From positions 1-30,542 of IMG/VR virus record IMGVR_UViG_3300006737_000112: a stretch of 30,542 nt of DNA, one strand, 5' to 3'. This document shows, piece by piece, positions 5,107 to 28,903 of this stretch. Numbering within the stretch: position 1 is the first letter of the stretch; every line of letters starts with the position of its first letter. This DNA is from a virus. The notes beneath the pieces were generated by a model. That model saw only the letters and a list, made by a program, of their open reading frames with translations, was not told the origin of the DNA and made no database searches. Position numbers and translations under genes: made by a program.

Positions 5107-5332
5107 CTTTCATATTGCTAAGAATTTCTTCTAGCACTATTTCCAAAGATGTTAGTTTCCTTCTGTATTTGGGTGGCAGTTGAACTTTTAACGAAGCAAT
5201 ACTCTTAATTAAATGTTCAACTGTAGCTGGAACTCCTAGATAGGTAGGAGTTGGTTGGGATACTCGATCTAGTAAAGCCTTTTGCTTTTTGAATAAAGAA
5301 AGATCTACTACTGTTGCAGTGTTAAGTTGCAT
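5099..5332 (-). CDS. Hypothetical protein, 77 aa
   Basis: Not recognised. Taken from ATG 5330-5332, which overlaps the upstream gene's stop by 11 bases; a TTG nine bases earlier is possible. It has a helical N-terminal third (LSLFKKQKALLDRVS), a Pro/Thr linker and a C-terminal helix pair (HLIKSIASLKVQLPPKYRRK, then SLEIVLEEILSNMKDD). No membrane segment. It is embedded between the 215-aa unknown and the DUF932 gene in one operon. Confidence 0.7.
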   Translation of the reverse strand: MQLNTATVVDLSLFKKQKALLDRVSQPTPTYLGVPATVEHLIKSIASLKVQLPPKYRRKLTSLEIVLEEILSNMKDD

Positions 5333-5969
5333 CGATAACAAGTGGGAATAGAGTATTTTGACCCATAGCCTGACAAATGTGATTCAACTCACATTGGAAT
5401 TGGTCAGGATCTCGGTTCAAAGGCACACCATCGAGAGGTTCGTTACTCATGGAGTAAATGTTGGCAAAGATGCCACCTTTACTGCCTTTGCTTGTGTATA
5501 TGATGCCGTTAAAATCCGATTGGTCAATGTGGCTAGTCCATTGTTGTGTCCTAAGGTCACCGCAGAAACTAGCAGGTGCGTTTTGAACCAACATTTTACC
5601 TGTATCTTCATTAGGTAGTCCACCTATTTTCATCTTGAGAACAGTTAAACCATTCTTTACTGGAGCGAATACTCCATTCAGCTGGTTACCGTCATCGTCG
5701 AATGCAAACGTATTTAGATACACGTTGAGATAAGGTTGTTTCCTACCTTTAGTGACGTGGTGAGTGAGAGAAAGGATGGGCTTGCCAAAGAAGACTAGAC
5801 CTGTATCGATTGCCAAGGTAAACTTAGGTTCACTTGGTGATGGACCATATCCATAAATACAGCCGTCTCGATTGATGCCAATCGTTTGAACTGGCAGGGA
5901 AGGTCTAACAGGCAAGCCTGTCTCTGTAGTGGTGATGGGTTGAACTTGTTTGGTTTCTAACTCAGACAT
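5322..5969 (-). CDS. Hypothetical protein, 215 aa, head of an early operon
   Basis: Not recognised. Starting at ATG 5967-5969 (a TTG at 5987 is possible but less likely), the protein is beta-rich and Gly/Pro/Asn-containing, e.g. TLAIDTGLVFFGKPILSLTHH, KQPYLNVYLNTFAFDDDGNQ and GLTVLKMKIGGLPNEDTGK. No catalytic motif stands out. The alternating strands could suit an OB-like or jelly-roll fold, which is speculation. A copy of the 12-bp early element lies 20 bases before its ATG, so it probably heads the minus unit running down to 3197. Confidence 0.7.
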   Translation of the reverse strand: MSELETKQVQPITTTETGLPVRPSLPVQTIGINRDGCIYGYGPSPSEPKFTLAIDTGLVFFGKPILSLTHHVTKGRKQPYLNVYLNTFAFDDDGNQLNGVFAPVKNGLTVLKMKIGGLPNEDTGKMLVQNAPASFCGDLRTQQWTSHIDQSDFNGIIYTSKGSKGGIFANIYSMSNEPLDGVPLNRDPDQFQCELNHICQAMGQNTLFPLVIDAT

Positions 5970-5989
5970 AAGAGCGAAGTAATACAACA

Positions 5990-6001: not shown

Positions 6002-6051
6002 CAAATCGGCAATAACAAACGCTTTACAATGGAAACAGCTACGCAAAGGAA

Positions 6052-6579
6052 ATGGATTTAGTGCCAAACCCAACAGGAGAATTACACATTAAAGTATTAC
6101 CTCAAGAAGAGGGTGGACAAGGTAATGTCCCTGACTTGGCGCAGAAGTTAGTATTGTTAGCGTCTTTCGTGAGAGAGTTACAAACTCAATCACATTTGAT
6201 TCATTTCAATTATGAAGATCAAAATTTCTTAGCAGTCCATGCATTCTTGAAGGATCAATACGAAGCACACCTAGGTCAGTTTGATAAGTTGGGCGAGTTG
6301 GTGAGAACTCTTGACTATTGGATGCCTATGTGTTCTTGCGGATTAAAAGATGCATTAGGGTCTTGTTTTAAGAATGTTGAGTCTTATGAAGGTGTGGAAC
6401 AATTAAATACTTATTTACAGAATCTTGAAGCTTTCTCCAACATGCTCAAGATGATTGAGCCGGCTGCAGCAAAGTGTCAAGCGTATGACGTATCGAACTA
6501 TATAGGAGAGTTACTAGGAGATGTATGGAAAGCTTGTTGGATGATCAAAGCGACCATCCGTTCAAACAATCATTCATAG
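6052..6579 (+). CDS. Dps-like ferritin-fold protein
   Basis: The 175-aa product has the helix and ligand layout of Dps (DNA protection during starvation) proteins, which oxidise and store iron and can coat DNA. LIHFNYEDQNFLAVHAFLKD (residues 49-68) gives H51 and H63, and FDKLGE (77-82) gives D78 and E82. The spacings of 12, 27 and 31 residues from H51 equal those of the Dps ferroxidase ligands; the position of the usual extra Asp (16 after H51) is Lys67. There is no Lys-rich DNA-binding tail. It is alone on the plus strand between minus-strand operons, with only 51 bases separating it from the divergent early element, and it overlaps the next minus gene tail to tail by 10 bases. Iron handling is inferred from family. 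Confidence 0.75.
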   Translation: MDLVPNPTGELHIKVLPQEEGGQGNVPDLAQKLVLLASFVRELQTQSHLIHFNYEDQNFLAVHAFLKDQYEAHLGQFDKLGELVRTLDYWMPMCSCGLKDALGSCFKNVESYEGVEQLNTYLQNLEAFSNMLKMIEPAAAKCQAYDVSNYIGELLGDVWKACWMIKATIRSNNHS

Positions 6580-6782
6580 TTATCAACAGGACATAAAGAC
6601 CAATTACTATTACTAGTACCTCTTTCTTCTTCGGGGATTAAAGCAAGAAAGAGATTCCAAGCTTGTGCAGCAGTGCAGTGCTCTGCAACAAATAGCTGTG
6701 AATATGGACTTTTGTATTGATATCTGATCTCCCAGTCAGCAGGCTTCTTAGCCAACGTGTTCATCTCAATAAGATGGGACAT
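6570..6782 (-). CDS. Hypothetical protein, 70 aa
   Basis: Not recognised. It is compact, with aromatic residues (DWEIRYQYKSPYSQLFVAEH) and a helix (TAAQAWNLFLALIPEEER), and no membrane segment. It overlaps the upstream Cys-motif gene by 17 bases and converges with the Dps-like gene, overlapping it by 10 bases at the 3' ends. It is the last gene of the minus unit starting at 8967. Confidence 0.7.
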   Translation of the reverse strand: MSHLIEMNTLAKKPADWEIRYQYKSPYSQLFVAEHCTAAQAWNLFLALIPEEERGTSNSNWSLCPVDNYE

Positions 6783-8347: not shown

Positions 8348-8967
8348 TTGAAAGAGAATTTCCTTTCGGTCTTGAGTGAAACGCCTGAATACTTCAGGTT
8401 GGTTTTAAGAAGCTTCTTGATCTCGGGCTTATCAAGAGTGATTGCTCCTTGTCTTTGACAAGATGGTGGAATTTTGTCCCAATCAATAAGCATATAGTCG
8501 ACTTCTACAGACTCTGTCTTACGTGATGTGATTTTGTGAGTAGGCAGATCATATTTTGTGAACCCTTGATCGCTGTATACATGGTTAAACATTTTGTATA
8601 CATAGGATTCCAACTGTTCAGCAGTCTTCTCGTCTCTTTCTGCAAGAGCCTTGATCCTGTTAGCTTCGTCCTTACGGAACTTTGCACGGTTGCGAAACCA
8701 GCTGACCATAGTAAGGATCTGATCTGCATTATTGTCAAATTCTTCTGCTCCTACGAGGCACATTTCTACTTGTTCTTGTGCTTTCTGCTTGAGAACAGGA
8801 TCTTCTGCCGTAAGATCTTCTAGGAACTCGGCTTCTGGAGGACATTGCATCATATCGAATGCAAGGTCTCTCAATTTGCGCTGGAGATGACTTTGGTTTG
8901 GAATAATCTTTGCCGAAGAAACTGGCTTAGATTGCGCTTTGGTTTTAGCTTTTGATGAAGATGTCAT
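8344..8967 (-). CDS. Siphovirus Gp157-family protein
   Basis: The 207-aa product fits the Siphovirus Gp157 family. A long charged coiled-coil helix (about residues 80-130: WFRNRAKFRKDEANRIKAL, then ERDEKTAEQLESYVYKMF) precedes a KYDLPTHKITSRKTESVEVD beta segment, an IPPSCQRQ segment and a C-terminal DKPEIKKLLKTNLKYSGVSL, matching the family's helix, T-x-x-x-S-x-R/K, 'IP' and 'DK..IK..LK.G' order. The first 25 residues are a low-complexity Ser/Lys tail. The family lies in phage early or recombination regions; its activity is not established. It heads the minus unit down to 6570 and sits directly after a terminator. Confidence 0.8.
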   Translation of the reverse strand: MTSSSKAKTKAQSKPVSSAKIIPNQSHLQRKLRDLAFDMMQCPPEAEFLEDLTAEDPVLKQKAQEQVEMCLVGAEEFDNNADQILTMVSWFRNRAKFRKDEANRIKALAERDEKTAEQLESYVYKMFNHVYSDQGFTKYDLPTHKITSRKTESVEVDYMLIDWDKIPPSCQRQGAITLDKPEIKKLLKTNLKYSGVSLKTERKFSFK

Positions 8968-8976
8968 TGTAATGGT

Positions 8977-9003
8977 GAGAAAAGAGGGGCTTTTGACAGC
9001 CCC
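8977..9003 (-). terminator. Terminator, minus strand
   Basis: Minus strand GGGGCT, loop GTCAAA, AGCCCC, then TCTTTTCTC. A perfect 6-bp GC-rich stem with an interrupted U-run just after the 9012-9377 gene. It ends only 9 bases before the Gp157-like start, so it may act as an attenuator for that operon. Confidence 0.75.
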
Positions 9004-9011
9004 ATTTGTGT

Positions 9012-9377
9012 TTATGCAGGTTGGATCTGAGGGTCAGTACCGTCTGAACCTTTGGCTGCTTTGATAGCTTGCTGACGCTTGTAATCAGCAACCATAGTTT
9101 TGAGAGGAACCTCACCAACAGGCTTGCCGCCCATGATGAGGATCTTTCGGTGTATCTTCTGACCGTCTACGACTTCGAAGATGTTTGGATCGTCTTGACC
9201 CATAGCTTTAACAGCGTGGTCAGACTTGAAGCCTGCGTTGACAATCGTCTCTAATCTTGAGTCGTCTTTACCCGACCAAGTTAGAAATTCGATATGCCCC
9301 CAATTAGCTCCGTTACCGTATTTGTTATCGGTACCTGAATAGAAGTTCAGCTCCGCATTGACGAGTGGGATTTTCAT
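9012..9377 (-). CDS. Hypothetical protein, 121 aa, own transcription unit
   Basis: Not recognised. A soluble alpha/beta protein: AELNFYSGTDNKYGNGANWG is Gly/Asn-rich, then HIEFLTWSGKDD, a helix (DSRLETIVNAGF), IHRKILIMGGKPVGEVPLK and a charged C-terminal helix (TMVADYKRQQAIKAAK). A copy of the 12-bp early element lies 37 bases before the ATG and a terminator follows the stop, so it is probably a single-gene unit. Its neighbour is the Gp157-like gene. Confidence 0.75.
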   Translation of the reverse strand: MKIPLVNAELNFYSGTDNKYGNGANWGHIEFLTWSGKDDSRLETIVNAGFKSDHAVKAMGQDDPNIFEVVDGQKIHRKILIMGGKPVGEVPLKTMVADYKRQQAIKAAKGSDGTDPQIQPA

Positions 9378-9414
9378 AAGAGAAATCAGACAGCACAGGC
9401 GATGACAGGTACAA

Positions 9415-9426
9415 AATGTACTGATG
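9415..9426 (-). promoter_or_regulatory. 12-bp early element, copy 3
   Basis: Minus strand CATCAGTACATT, followed directly by TTGTACC, 37 bases before ATG 9377. It lies in the 104-base space between divergent genes. The upstream side is AT-rich (TTTATTTATAG). Confidence 0.6.
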
Positions 9427-9481
9427 ACATAGCCTATAAATAAAACACATAGAATATAGTTATTGCAATTATTGTTAACAG

Positions 9482-9973
9482 ATGTTCAAGCGTAATCCTA
9501 TTGGCGAATTTGATGAGTACGTAAGACGTGGGATGACTGGAGCTGCTGATGAAGCACGGACGCAAGGTGACCTAGCTCTACAAGAGTCTTTGAATAGACG
9601 AATGGGTGCGCCTGACTTGAATGAGAATTCATTACAAGGTATAGCAGCCGCTATCGCTCAAGAGACTAACTCTACTCCTGAGACAGTCTTAGCTGCTTTG
9701 AAAAGACAGCAAAATATGAGTCCTGACTTGAGGAAGTCTCAACAAGACATCATGATTCAGACTGCTGTAGATAATAGAGGAGCCGGTCCAGTAGAAGGAT
9801 ATCTAGGACTCATGGGTGGAACCGATGCTCCATCCCGAGTCACACAGGTAGGTAGCTATGGCGCTGCAGGTGGTGCATTAACAGCTGGTGCTGCGGGCTT
9901 GATCGATATTATGCAATATCTAACAAGTGGTAATGACCAAGCTGAAGATAGAATGGACGTCTTGACTTCATGA
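9482..9973 (+). CDS. Presumed virion protein, Gly/Ala-rich, 163 aa
   Basis: Not a recognised family, but its style matches the late block far downstream. A charged helical N-terminal region (EYVRRGMTGAADEARTQGDL) and a middle with AAAIAQETNSTPETVLAALK precede a Gly/Ala hydrophobic stretch near the C-terminus (SYGAAGGALTAGAAGLIDIM, about residues 124-143). Such hydrophobic glycine-rich segments suggest a membrane-active or internal virion protein. It heads a three-gene plus-strand island placed between minus-strand units. Confidence 0.7.
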   Translation: MFKRNPIGEFDEYVRRGMTGAADEARTQGDLALQESLNRRMGAPDLNENSLQGIAAAIAQETNSTPETVLAALKRQQNMSPDLRKSQQDIMIQTAVDNRGAGPVEGYLGLMGGTDAPSRVTQVGSYGAAGGALTAGAAGLIDIMQYLTSGNDQAEDRMDVLTS

Positions 9974-10125
9974 TTAAACAACCGACTCCTGCTGAATGTG
10001 ACATAGCTAGAAAGGTGTTGTACTCCATGGAAACACATGGAAAAACAACAGGTAATAAGTATGTCAGCTATCAAGAGACGGTAAGAATATGTGAGCGCAG
10101 AGAGGCTAAATCATGGAAGGATTAA
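9970..10125 (+). CDS. Small hypothetical protein, 51 aa
   Basis: Read from ATG 9970-9972 to TAA 10123-10125, beginning MIKQPTPAECDIARKVLYSM and ending REAKSWKD. It overlaps the stop of the upstream gene (ATGA) and the start of the next by 13 bases, so it fills what would otherwise be a 139-base hole in a coupled trio. Helical and basic, no membrane segment, function unknown. Confidence 0.7.
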   Translation: MIKQPTPAECDIARKVLYSMETHGKTTGNKYVSYQETVRICERREAKSWKD

Positions 10126-13360: not shown

Positions 13361-14008
13361 ATGGACACCTCCTCAGAAACTGAATCAAAAAATATTCCAC
13401 CTAATCCTTTAGTCAATCTTGTCAAAAACGCGGATGCCAGCTTCACGCATCGCAAAGAACATCCATACATGAAATTCCACTATAAAAATCACAAAAACAT
13501 TAAAAAATCTCTGCAAAATTTTATTTCATCAAGATTTGCAATGACAGTCCTAGGAGGCGCCTCTCGTACTCGCTTCAACTTGCATCAAGAAAACCCCAGG
13601 CCAGATTGCTTAGAAGAAATATTAATGTTTCTAAATGTATGCATGCATGAGACATGTGTACGTTTTTCTGCAGGGCAAACAGGAGAAAAGATAGATCCCA
13701 GCACTCATCACTTGAATTTTGATCCTAATAAATTCGTTTTAGCTGAATGTTGGGGAATTCAGTACAAACAAAACGAAGGGGTTACTACTCATAATCATTT
13801 TCCGTATATCTTGTCGTGGACTTACAATATCCACACTCCGACAGGATCTGCACCTTTAGTCTTGGATCAACCTAGTGGATCTATAGATATCCCAGCGGAA
13901 GAAGGATCTTTAGTTATATTCTTAGGATCCAAGTTCCACAAGGTCATACCTCAAGATCAGAAAGGGGATGATCGCTGCTGCTTAATAGGAAATGTCTCTT
14001 ATGGATAA
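13361..14008 (+). CDS. 2OG-Fe(II) oxygenase-like protein, first of two
   Basis: The 215-aa product carries the double-stranded beta-helix core of 2-oxoglutarate/Fe(II) dioxygenases, which hydroxylate or oxidise a substrate while decarboxylating 2-oxoglutarate. CWGIQYKQNEGVTTHNHF (130-147) supplies H144 and H146, then SWTYNIH; GSLVIFLGSKFHKV (182-195) supplies distal H193 and R205 fits the 2OG-binding Arg. Where the second oxygenase here has H-x-D (HAD), this one has H-F-P, so the acidic iron ligand is not obvious. It opens the plus-strand late block. The substrate is unknown. Confidence 0.7.
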   Translation: MDTSSETESKNIPPNPLVNLVKNADASFTHRKEHPYMKFHYKNHKNIKKSLQNFISSRFAMTVLGGASRTRFNLHQENPRPDCLEEILMFLNVCMHETCVRFSAGQTGEKIDPSTHHLNFDPNKFVLAECWGIQYKQNEGVTTHNHFPYILSWTYNIHTPTGSAPLVLDQPSGSIDIPAEEGSLVIFLGSKFHKVIPQDQKGDDRCCLIGNVSYG

Positions 14009-17656: not shown

Positions 17657-18403
17657 ATGACTAATAGATTCCTTGAGGTTGAATATGATCCAGTTGAAGA
17701 CAAGCTATATGCTTCTAGAAAGATAGAAGGAATTGCAAGGGTTCTACTAACTCCTTCTTCTAAATCTATTACGACTTCTACTTATACAATTACTACTGAC
17801 GATGCAGAAAGCGTTTTAATCTGTGAAACGGTAGATACCACGATAACTCTTAGCTCAGGCTCTTTCAGACTGGGATCTACTATTACGTTGTTATCAGGAG
17901 AATCTAATGAATTAACTCTTGTTGGTAGCGGGATCACTTTAAATACTGCGTCTAGTAATACTTCAAGTTCTAATACTTACAGGAATCCATTTTCTCACGC
18001 AAAGATTACTTTGACTTGTGTTGGCACGGATAAATGGATTGTTTCTGGAGATATAACTGCAGACGTTAAAAAAACCTATACTGTCACAGCCGATAGTGGA
18101 AATTATGTCTTTAACGGTAGTGGATTATCAGATTCTATAAATCCAGCTCTAACTCTTTCTGTTGGACAATTTATGGAAATAGATAATCAATCAGGATCTA
18201 GCCACCCTTTCGTTGTCAAAAAAGGTAATGTGAGTGGTGCAGCTACAGGTGTAGGACCTACCTCTCCTGGTTGGGCTCGTTTAGAAAATAATAATCAACA
18301 CGGATCAGATAACAAACTTAGAGTTTCTTTCCGAGAAACAGGAGATTATTATTACATATGTCAATATCATGGCACTATGAAAGCAGCTATTACTGTTTCA
18401 TAA
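17657..18403 (+). CDS. Virion-type protein with C-terminal cupredoxin domain
   Basis: The 248-aa product has two parts. Residues about 35-133 read like a beta-strand domain common in phage tail-fibre or decoration proteins (YTITTDDAESVLICETVDTT, GSTITLLSGES, TLTCVGTDKWIVSGDI). Residues about 138-248 form a cupredoxin-like domain, ending YYYICQYHGTMKAAITV. Candidate type-1 copper ligands are H183 (SSHPF), C235, H238 and M241, with the C-x2-H-x2-M spacing seen in amicyanin. The domain could bind copper or simply use the fold as a surface module. An AT-rich element abuts its start. Confidence 0.8.
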   Translation: MTNRFLEVEYDPVEDKLYASRKIEGIARVLLTPSSKSITTSTYTITTDDAESVLICETVDTTITLSSGSFRLGSTITLLSGESNELTLVGSGITLNTASSNTSSSNTYRNPFSHAKITLTCVGTDKWIVSGDITADVKKTYTVTADSGNYVFNGSGLSDSINPALTLSVGQFMEIDNQSGSSHPFVVKKGNVSGAATGVGPTSPGWARLENNNQHGSDNKLRVSFRETGDYYYICQYHGTMKAAITVS

Positions 18404-26191: not shown

Positions 26192-26482
26192 ATGACTGAA
26201 GAAAAAATTAGAGAGATTTTACCTCATTTGTGTTACACGAAAGACGAAGTAGTTATTATGTTGGCCGATGCTGTAGCCAAGGCTAAGGCTATTGACGAGG
26301 CCTCTATGAAACAACACAATAGAAATGCAACAATTATTAGTATGATTCTTGGATTTACGTGCCTTGCATTATTTGTCGATGGGTTACTTAGAATTCTTGG
26401 AATTATTCCACCTTTCTTAGGTTTGGATGTAAATATTATTGATCAAATAGTAGAAAAGGTTAGGCACTATGGACAACTATAA
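26192..26482 (+). CDS. Holin-like small membrane protein, 96 aa
   Basis: An N-terminal charged helix (KIREILPHLC, then DEVVIMLADAVAKAKAIDEA) is followed by one strongly hydrophobic stretch of about 28 residues (NATIISMILGFTCLALFVDG, then LLRILGIIPPFLGL, about 45-77), probably one or two membrane segments. Ends IVEKVRHYGQL. Size and layout suit a holin or spanin-like lysis protein, though no endolysin gene is visible nearby. It overlaps the next gene by 14 bases. Confidence 0.6.
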   Translation: MTEEKIREILPHLCYTKDEVVIMLADAVAKAKAIDEASMKQHNRNATIISMILGFTCLALFVDGLLRILGIIPPFLGLDVNIIDQIVEKVRHYGQL

Positions 26483-27068
26483 AGGATATGTAGATGTCTT
26501 CCCTACGCGAATACATAAGGTTGGCTTGGATACAAAGGTAATTCCTACTGACGTATCTTCCGAGGAATTGAACTTCAAGGGTTATGCGGATGTCCTAAGA
26601 GATCCAAAATATAAAACTTTAAATGAAATGGTTCTGAAAGAAGCCTCTAGTCTTTGCCCTCGGCATCCAAATATAGGTGACTGGAAAATAGTAGCAGCTT
26701 GGATCAATAAACAGAAACCAGGAGAAGAAGGCTTTGTTTTTCATAGTCATGCAGATTCTTTTATGTCGTGCGTGCTTTATGTAGAGGGCAGCAATATGTC
26801 TTTAATTGTAAAAGAAGAACCTAAGACGAGTAAAGCTACTAATGCTACTCAAGACTGTTTCTTTGATATAGTAGTGCGTCATAGTTGGCACCCTGAAGTT
26901 GAATTGCCTGCGGAAAATGGAGACTTGCTAGTTTTTCCTAGTTATCAAATACATAAGGCGAATAAGAACACAACAGACCAAGATAGGATTAGCATTGCTT
27001 ATAATTTACTTCCTTCCAAAATCCATAATAAGAAAGATCTCCCCTGGCTCATAGATTTAGAACTATAG
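26469..27068 (+). CDS. 2OG-Fe(II) oxygenase, second of two
   Basis: The 199-aa product is a clearer dioxygenase than the first. AAWINKQKPGEEGFVFHSHA (76-95) leads into H92-S-H94-A-D96-S with H94-x-D96 as likely iron ligands; VELPAENGDLLVFPSYQIHK (144-163) provides the distal H162; and DRISIAYNLL (172-181) supplies R173, the 2OG-binding Arg. This matches phage-type 2OG-Fe(II) oxygenases of about 200 aa that may modify nucleic acid or host protein. The substrate is unknown. It sits three genes from the terminase. Confidence 0.82.
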   Translation: MDNYKGYVDVFPTRIHKVGLDTKVIPTDVSSEELNFKGYADVLRDPKYKTLNEMVLKEASSLCPRHPNIGDWKIVAAWINKQKPGEEGFVFHSHADSFMSCVLYVEGSNMSLIVKEEPKTSKATNATQDCFFDIVVRHSWHPEVELPAENGDLLVFPSYQIHKANKNTTDQDRISIAYNLLPSKIHNKKDLPWLIDLEL

Positions 27069-27370: not shown

Positions 27371-28903
27371 ATGTCTAATGCATCGATATCTCTCGCTCGT
27401 AGACGAAGTGCCCAATTAGCTGCTCGTGCTATACAGAGTCAGCCAGAGGTCGTTACAACTCCTCCACACGTCTTAAAAGCACGTAAAAGTTTTGCTTTCT
27501 TTTGCGAGCTAATGGGAAAACCTGCAGCTCGTCATATGAAGGTGTGGCACCAAGAGTTTTTAACAGGTGAAAGCAACGAGCATTTGCTCGATATTGCGGG
27601 TCCCAATACATGCTTATTAAGTCCTAGAGGCAGTGCTAAATCTACAGTAATAGGATTATTAGTTGCTTGGTTGATAGGACGTCATGCTCAGGCTAAAAAA
27701 TTATTAAGAACTTTATACGTTTCATACAACGTAGACGTTGCAAGGAATAAAAGTGCTGCAATAAAAAACCTCATTTCCAATAAAGAATATCAAGAAATTT
27801 TTCCGACAGTTCGATTATCCAAGCATCGCACGAGCGATGAATTATGGTCTATTGATTTCGAACACGCAGAGATAGACGTTAGAGGAGAAGACGCTTTCAC
27901 TGTTGCTTGTGCAGGATTGAAAGGAACTATTACTTCTAAGCGAAGTTCGTTAATCATCGTTGATGACGCTATCAAAAGCGCAGCAGCCATCGCTAATCCA
28001 GATATAAGAAGAGAGATGGAATCTAATTGGACAAATGTTATTGTTCCAACCATGTTTCAAGGTGCTCGTGCTATTGCTTTAGGAACTCGATTTCATTTTG
28101 ATGATTTATTTACTACAACTTTCTGTCGGAAAAAAGGATGGAAAGTTATATCACAAGGGGCATTAAGTTATGACGATAGTGGTGCTCCTAAATCTTATTG
28201 GCCTTCTTTTTGGTCTGTTAAATATCTTTTAAAATTACAAGCTGATGATCGTGTCGCTTTCTCTTACCAATACTTAAACCAACCAATTAAAACGACTGAG
28301 CTTGGGATCTCTCCTGAATTATTTGTCAAAGGTGAAGTACCAGATGAATATGACACGATTGGAGTGGGTATTGATCTGTCTGCAGGTATGACAGAACGAA
28401 ATGATTGGACTGTATTCACCTTGGCAGGACGCAAAGATGATCATGTTTACATCATCGACTACAAAAGAATGAGGTCGATGGGGAATCTTGAAAAGATAGA
28501 AGCTTTGTGTGAGCTATTAATAGAGTGGAATTTATTAAGTACCAACGATGAAGGTCAATACTTCAGAACAGATTCGCCTGTTGTAATTTGGCCTGAAGTA
28601 GTGGCTTATCAAAAAAGTTTTGAAGGAGATCTCAAACGAATTTTATTTAACGAGTGGCAGCTCTATAATTTAAGTGTTAGTCCTGTTAAAGGTTTTAGGG
28701 GTGATAAGCTCGCTCGCCTTAGAGGGATTATTGGTCTTTTTCAAGGTAAAAAGATTATTTTTAATAAATATCGAGATTTCACCTGCATGGTTGATGAAGT
28801 ATGCAATTTCGGTCATGCTCCTCATGATGACTGTGCCGATTCTTTGAATATCGTTGTGCAAGGTCTCATGAAACGAGGCGGCGCACAAATAGAATGGAGG
28901 TAG
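27371..28903 (+). CDS. terL: Terminase large subunit (ATPase-nuclease)
   Basis: This is the packaging motor that cuts concatemeric phage DNA and drives it into the prohead using ATP. 510 aa. The N-terminal ATPase has a Walker A-like LSPRGSAKSTV (83-93) and Walker B LIIVDD (194-199), with an ALGTR coupling segment (236-240). The C-terminal RNase H-like nuclease has GVGIDLSAG (331-339, D335) and HDDCADSL (485-492) as likely metal-binding sites. Length is typical. It is followed directly by the portal gene, the usual pair. Confidence 0.93.
   Translation: MSNASISLARRRSAQLAARAIQSQPEVVTTPPHVLKARKSFAFFCELMGKPAARHMKVWHQEFLTGESNEHLLDIAGPNTCLLSPRGSAKSTVIGLLVAWLIGRHAQAKKLLRTLYVSYNVDVARNKSAAIKNLISNKEYQEIFPTVRLSKHRTSDELWSIDFEHAEIDVRGEDAFTVACAGLKGTITSKRSSLIIVDDAIKSAAAIANPDIRREMESNWTNVIVPTMFQGARAIALGTRFHFDDLFTTTFCRKKGWKVISQGALSYDDSGAPKSYWPSFWSVKYLLKLQADDRVAFSYQYLNQPIKTTELGISPELFVKGEVPDEYDTIGVGIDLSAGMTERNDWTVFTLAGRKDDHVYIIDYKRMRSMGNLEKIEALCELLIEWNLLSTNDEGQYFRTDSPVVIWPEVVAYQKSFEGDLKRILFNEWQLYNLSVSPVKGFRGDKLARLRGIIGLFQGKKIIFNKYRDFTCMVDEVCNFGHAPHDDCADSLNIVVQGLMKRGGAQIEWR

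Follow-up and report, generated by a model that had tools for sequence, protein, structure and literature searches.

The hallmark of the Dps fold is a short helix that follows the second long helix and precedes the third. In the canonical ferroxidase site of Dps proteins, residue 67 is an Asp or Glu that binds site B via water; in Nostoc Dps4 (NpDps4), neither Asn67 nor the adjacent D68 takes part, and iron is still oxidised (PMC6675082). DNA binding by E. coli Dps has been attributed to its lysine tail, MsDps2 binds DNA without a tail, and the L. innocua and streptococcal Dps proteins do not bind DNA but protect through ferroxidation or iron sequestration (PMC10536872). Dps-type genes are also present in Lactobacillus plantarum phages (PMC6669764), and in a lytic infection of Yersinia few host genes are induced as strongly as dps (PMC7354516).

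The closest described relative of the gene studied here belongs to the Synechococcus phage S-EIV1 (AHV82153.1, KJ410740), which is alone among named phages in having a close dps and in which the product is already annotated as a 'DNA-binding ferritin-like protein'. Here, we analysed a window comprising 30,542 bases of an IMG/VR virus record that includes a terminase and encodes a Dps-type protein 42% (41.6%) identical to that of S-EIV1 over 96% of the protein. The two share the same ligands; by contrast, the S-EIV1 protein has a Lys-containing tail and Gly67-Glu68.

Results

The open reading frame at 6052-6579 on the plus strand starts with ATG, encodes 175 residues and is a genuine Dps-type gene. 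The protein matched the Pfam Ferritin family PF00210 with an E-value of 9.2e-8 and 32.6 bits, above the gathering cut-off of 24.5; all 49 aligned members of its S-EIV1-type subfamily also matched the ferritin family. It also matched PHROG 3636, named 'DNA binding protein', over residues 29-169 (E 1e-16, 62 bits); judged by its name and by this score, against the 240-312 bits that phage members reach with the subfamily profile, PHROG 3636 is a broad phage family and not a subfamily marker. A phmmer search against solved proteins matched Dps, with 3kwo at the top (E 1.8e-4), and a 49-row profile improved this match to 1e-13, with HP-NAP, CAIP and other Dps proteins next.

An AlphaFold monomer model, given 49 phage sequences as input, showed Dps topology with a pLDDT of 87.5, comprising long helices at residues 26-53, 59-86, 114-141 and 145-173 and a short BC helix at 95-102. 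Foldseek returned Dps proteins as its top PDB matches (E 1e-6), and VIA-align gave Z scores of ~20-22 over ~140-160 residues to Dps of many bacteria, with Z ~22 to 2chp and 2vzb, 1.4 Å over 145 residues to MrgA, and further matches to Staphylococcus and Listeria Dps and to the cyanobacterial Dps proteins 2c41, 2vxx and 5hjf. The original prediction had described a phage-borne, Dps-like protein of ferritin fold and had proposed a profile search against ferritin families and a structure prediction as checks; the PF00210 match above its cut-off, the four-helix bundle with a short BC helix in the monomer model, and the Foldseek and VIA-align matches support each part of this description. As the model is a monomer, a metal site between subunits and a 12-mer shell are what we infer from knowledge of the family.

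The predicted ferroxidase ligands H51, H63, D78 and E82 lie at exactly the residue numbers originally claimed, matching E. coli Dps numbering. The codons for H51 to H63 (6202-6240, plus strand) cover the first half of the putative ferroxidase site, on helices A and B, and those for D78 to E82 (6283-6297, plus strand) the second half. Among 94 distinct phage sequences of the S-EIV1-type subfamily, H48, H51, N53, F59, H63, Y70, H73, Q76, D78, E82, R85, K160 and W163 were invariant. The spacing H-x11-H-x14-D-x3-E arose in 60 of 100,000 shuffles of the protein's own residues and occurred in one of the 56 open reading frames of the window, but homology, namely the PF00210 and PHROG 3636 matches and the invariance of the His/His/Asp/Glu set, takes the ferroxidase motif far beyond chance. 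H73 (codon 6268-6270) is as invariant as the ligands, yet a helical wheel places it on a face of helix B that points away from them.

Residue 67 (codon 6250-6252, plus strand), the usual place of a further Asp or Glu ligand, is Lys in the window protein, again as the original prediction stated. A canonical Asp or Glu at this position was absent across the 94 sequences, which carry Lys (82), Gly (11) or Arg (1). Met67 was found in 9 of the 12 Cyanobiaceae Dps loci read, and the Dps of phage S-SRM01 has Gly67. Given that Lys, Gly or Arg occupies the position throughout the subfamily and that Met67 is common in the Dps of host Cyanobiaceae, K67 is a variant common to the whole family, at a position that tolerates change, rather than a lost site, and Asn67 in NpDps4 together with Met67 in host Dps indicates that membership of Dps is independent of Asp/Glu67. 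K67 may change the kinetics, and its charge could weaken the second iron site, but it is no demonstration that function has been lost. We rejected D68 as a stand-in for D67, since it is replaced by Glu, Gly, Ala or Lys in 10 of the 94 sequences, lies ~80 degrees from D78 on the helical wheel, and is non-binding in NpDps4 (PMC6675082).

A second departure lies at position 52, which is Leu or Phe throughout the 94 sequences and never Trp, whereas W52 adjoins H51 in most Dps. Together with the uniform K/G/R at position 67 and the occurrence, in BFVD models from other uncultured phages, of Dps folds within longer 'prohead protease' proteins, the absence of Trp52 would fit a Dps fold that has lost its ferroxidase activity through Lys67 and now has a metal-binding or structural role, for instance as part of the virion. 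We regard this as decidedly unlikely, because four of the five ligands are invariant and under strong purifying selection, NpDps4 oxidises iron with a non-participating Asn67 (PMC6675082), nine of 12 host Dps proteins have Met67, and dps is placed outside the structural block.

We also compared the site with the His-type ferroxidase centre of Nostoc Dps4 and Thermosynechococcus DpsA. These proteins resemble the phage Dps in fold (Z ~21) and in having no ligand at position 67, but they use His78 and His164, whereas the phage Dps keeps Asp78; His78 was not found in any of the 94 subfamily sequences, all of which have Asp78.

The N-terminal tail, residues 1-25 (6052-6126, plus strand), is mostly disordered in the model, with pLDDT below 50 at residues 1-6 and 8-23. 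In the window protein, its sequence is MDLVPNPTGELHIKVLPQEEGGQGN, with a net charge of −3, one basic residue in 25 and no Lys cluster, so the Lys-rich N-terminal tail of the E. coli type was not found in this protein. In most S-EIV1-type members the tail reads KPKxPxKSK and carries a net charge of +1 to +3; acidic tails are found in the window protein and its branch (L073-L080, L082, L098, L106 and L112), and the 10-row branch of our tree that contains the window protein is acidic-tailed.

These tails bear on whether the protein mainly binds and compacts DNA like E. coli Dps, covering phage DNA or condensing the host chromosome. The name of PHROG 3636 and the KPKxPxKSK tails of most relatives, similar to the E. 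coli lysine tail (PMC10536872), speak for such a function, but the net charge of −3, the acidic branch and an overall composition of 13 Lys and Arg against 22 Asp and Glu speak against it in the window copy, although the argument from the tail is softened by MsDps2, which binds DNA without one (PMC10536872). We therefore consider a mainly DNA-compacting protein unlikely. Compaction of host DNA had been among the roles first suggested, and for the window copy it is weakly supported, as the tail is without the Lys cluster of most relatives. Chiefly on account of this acidic, Lys-poor tail, iron and peroxide chemistry seems the more likely role of the window copy.

Between 874 and 9377, all non-overlapping open reading frames lie on the minus strand except dps, other plus-strand frames being antisense to minus-strand genes; the region is bounded by two small plus-strand frames (97-440) and by plus-strand genes from 9482. 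The claim that dps is the only plus-strand gene of a 9-kb minus-strand region thus stands as to the lone gene, while the region measures ~8.5 kb. The block contains Gp157/Gam-like, GP88 and DUF932 genes, and a recognised structural gene was not found in it; it may correspond to an early region. Upstream of dps lies a divergent neighbour (5322-5987, minus strand) and downstream a convergent one (6570-6782, minus strand) that overlaps the end of dps by 10 bases. The closest relative, locus L073 (73% identity), has the same two neighbours (56% and 64% identity, respectively) and full synteny on both sides, with dps alone reversed, and in L074, L075, L076, L080 and L082 dps is likewise the single plus-strand gene among minus-strand neighbours. 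Within the branch of the window, dps mostly occurs in this solitary plus-strand arrangement. In S-EIV1 and many others, dps is on the same strand as a neighbour; in S-EIV1 it is followed by a same-strand gene annotated as sulfate adenylyltransferase (8528-9994 of locus L001), whereas the window dps stands alone.

A consensus scan upstream of dps did not find a full sigma-70 promoter. The window and the syntenic L073 have in common a TACAAT patch ~22 bases upstream of the ATG (6025-6030, plus strand) with similar flanking bases, which is a candidate −10 element; dps may possibly have its own promoter there.

The terminase large subunit of the window (27371-28903, plus strand; PHROG 38, E 1e-69) links the phage to the S-EIV1 group: it shares 53% identity with the S-EIV1 terminase, the relatives listed after that reach 25% at most, and the terminases of four IMG/VR phages that carry a subfamily dps are 81-89% identical to it. 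Since both the terminase and the dps point to S-EIV1, the sole named phage with a closely related dps, a picocyanobacterium is the probable host. The S-EIV1 terminase itself (W01, KJ410740.1, 54092-56617) matches that of the window in two pieces, separated by ~330 extra codons within a single 849-residue frame, a pattern expected from an intein or some other insert.

The original prediction took phage-borne Dps-like proteins to be uncommon, a view contradicted by our searches and by the annotated S-EIV1 gene. With a single ordinary cyanobacterial Dps as query, a Dps-like gene was found in at least 207 phage records, whose hosts include Escherichia, Streptomyces, Proteus, Salmonella, Cronobacter and Synechococcus and several of which are annotated as Dps, and at least 335 IMG/VR stretches encode the S-EIV1-type subfamily. 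The window gene is thus sound but not unusual, a member of a large subfamily already represented in S-EIV1-related viruses. S-SRM01, Proteus phage Privateer, Salmonella phage 7-11, Streptomyces phage Comrade and Lactobacillus phage Semele likewise carry Dps-type genes; the proteins of the first four fall outside the S-EIV1-type clade in our tree, and Semele is not among the tree rows. Foldseek identified the BFVD models A0A6J7WPK9, A0A6J7XDU5 and A0A6J7WIS1 of uncultured phages as the Dps folds within longer 'prohead protease' proteins, a possible virion-linked use of Dps.

In the 61-row tree, which came from a short search and in which deep placement is unsure, the 31 S-EIV1-type phage proteins fell on one side of a branch with an SH-aLRT of 99 and a stem of 4.4 changes per site. 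The top PF00210 matches in Cyanobiaceae (L231-L260) were left out of the tree, as they had no Dps-profile match and looked like classical ferritins. The best cellular scores with the subfamily profile were 52 bits in 386 genomes of the cyanobacterial phylum and 46 bits in 400 Cyanobiaceae genomes, and a scan of 84,980 cellular genomes for phage-specific motifs found no relative, although such pattern scans miss distant ones. By these measures, the S-EIV1-type Dps group as one phage clade on a very long stem, for which a close cellular relative was not found, and appear to have drifted very far from all bacterial Dps. Cyanobacterial Dps, including those of Cyanobiaceae, share the fold family and the H51/H63/D78/E82 spacing, and several have no carboxylate at position 67 (Met or Gln), but they read HWN or HWD where the phage proteins read HFN or HLN, they score 52 bits or less with the phage profile, and Lys67 was not seen in the loci read. 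The best cellular scores with this profile came from two adjacent Dps genes (L214 and L230) in one cyanobacterial genome (G595, contig 31).

A Dps protein query matched 104 of 201 Cyanobiaceae genomes. The NCBIfam cyanobacterial DpsA model at E 1e-20 matched none of the 201, and we rejected the resulting notion of hosts without Dps as misleading in light of the protein query. About half of the Cyanobiaceae genomes thus have a possible donor for a recently captured host gene, which would make dps an ordinary auxiliary metabolic gene. The well-supported branch and long stem, the gap between the 240-312 bits of the phage proteins and the 52 bits or less of the cellular ones, and the empty motif scan all argue against recent capture, which we judge most improbable. 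Where dS could be estimated, pairwise dN/dS was 0.03-0.11, with dS near 2 in two pairs, values indicative of strong purifying selection on dps.

Discussion

Taking these observations together, we consider it probable that the gene encodes a Dps-type mini-ferritin of S-EIV1-like cyanophages, a 12-mer that would oxidise iron(II) during infection and spare phage DNA. The gene would form a plus-strand transcription unit of its own, expressed during infection, and its subunits would assemble into a 12-mer shell with Fe(II)-oxidising sites between neighbours, to which one subunit would contribute H51 and H63 and its neighbour D78 and E82. As the photosynthetic host is broken down, the free iron(II) set loose would be taken up by the shell, oxidised with peroxide or oxygen and stored, keeping Fenton chemistry off phage DNA under replication. 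With a tail that is acidic and poor in lysine, the protein would probably protect by removing iron and peroxide rather than by coating the DNA. The Lys at the place of the fifth ligand and the Phe or Leu instead of W52 are potential counterpoints to this role.

Iron is scarce for picocyanobacteria, yet plentiful inside them in their photosystems. Given that 104 of 201 Cyanobiaceae already encode Dps, it is not obvious what a phage would gain from a copy of its own; that copy might add to or replace the host Dps function, which may fail once host expression stops. The wide occurrence of phage Dps suggests that picocyanobacterial viruses manage iron and peroxide while dismantling the cell, and the lysine-tailed and acidic-tailed phage proteins offer a natural contrast by which the need for DNA binding and that for iron oxidation become testable.

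More speculatively, and in our view rather improbably, the subfamily could be a mini-ferritin lineage exclusive to phages, with a metal site that has been re-tuned (Lys, Gly or Arg67, no Trp52 and an added invariant His73) and tails that are lysine-rich or acidic by branch, in which the acidic branch, instead of binding DNA, would hold a reserve of iron in the infected cell, perhaps also feeding Fe(II)-dependent oxygenases of the phage. The window encodes two 2OG-Fe(II) oxygenase-like proteins (13361-14008 and 26469-27068, both plus strand) that match PF13759, the first below the cut-off, so that the phage would encode Fe(II)-requiring enzymes beside the mini-ferritin. In the structural block, the protein encoded at 17657-18403 (plus strand) carries at its C-terminus a plastocyanin/cupredoxin-like domain (PF00127, E 5e-4, narrowly under the cut-off), and its end, CQYHGTM, reads as a copper-site pattern.
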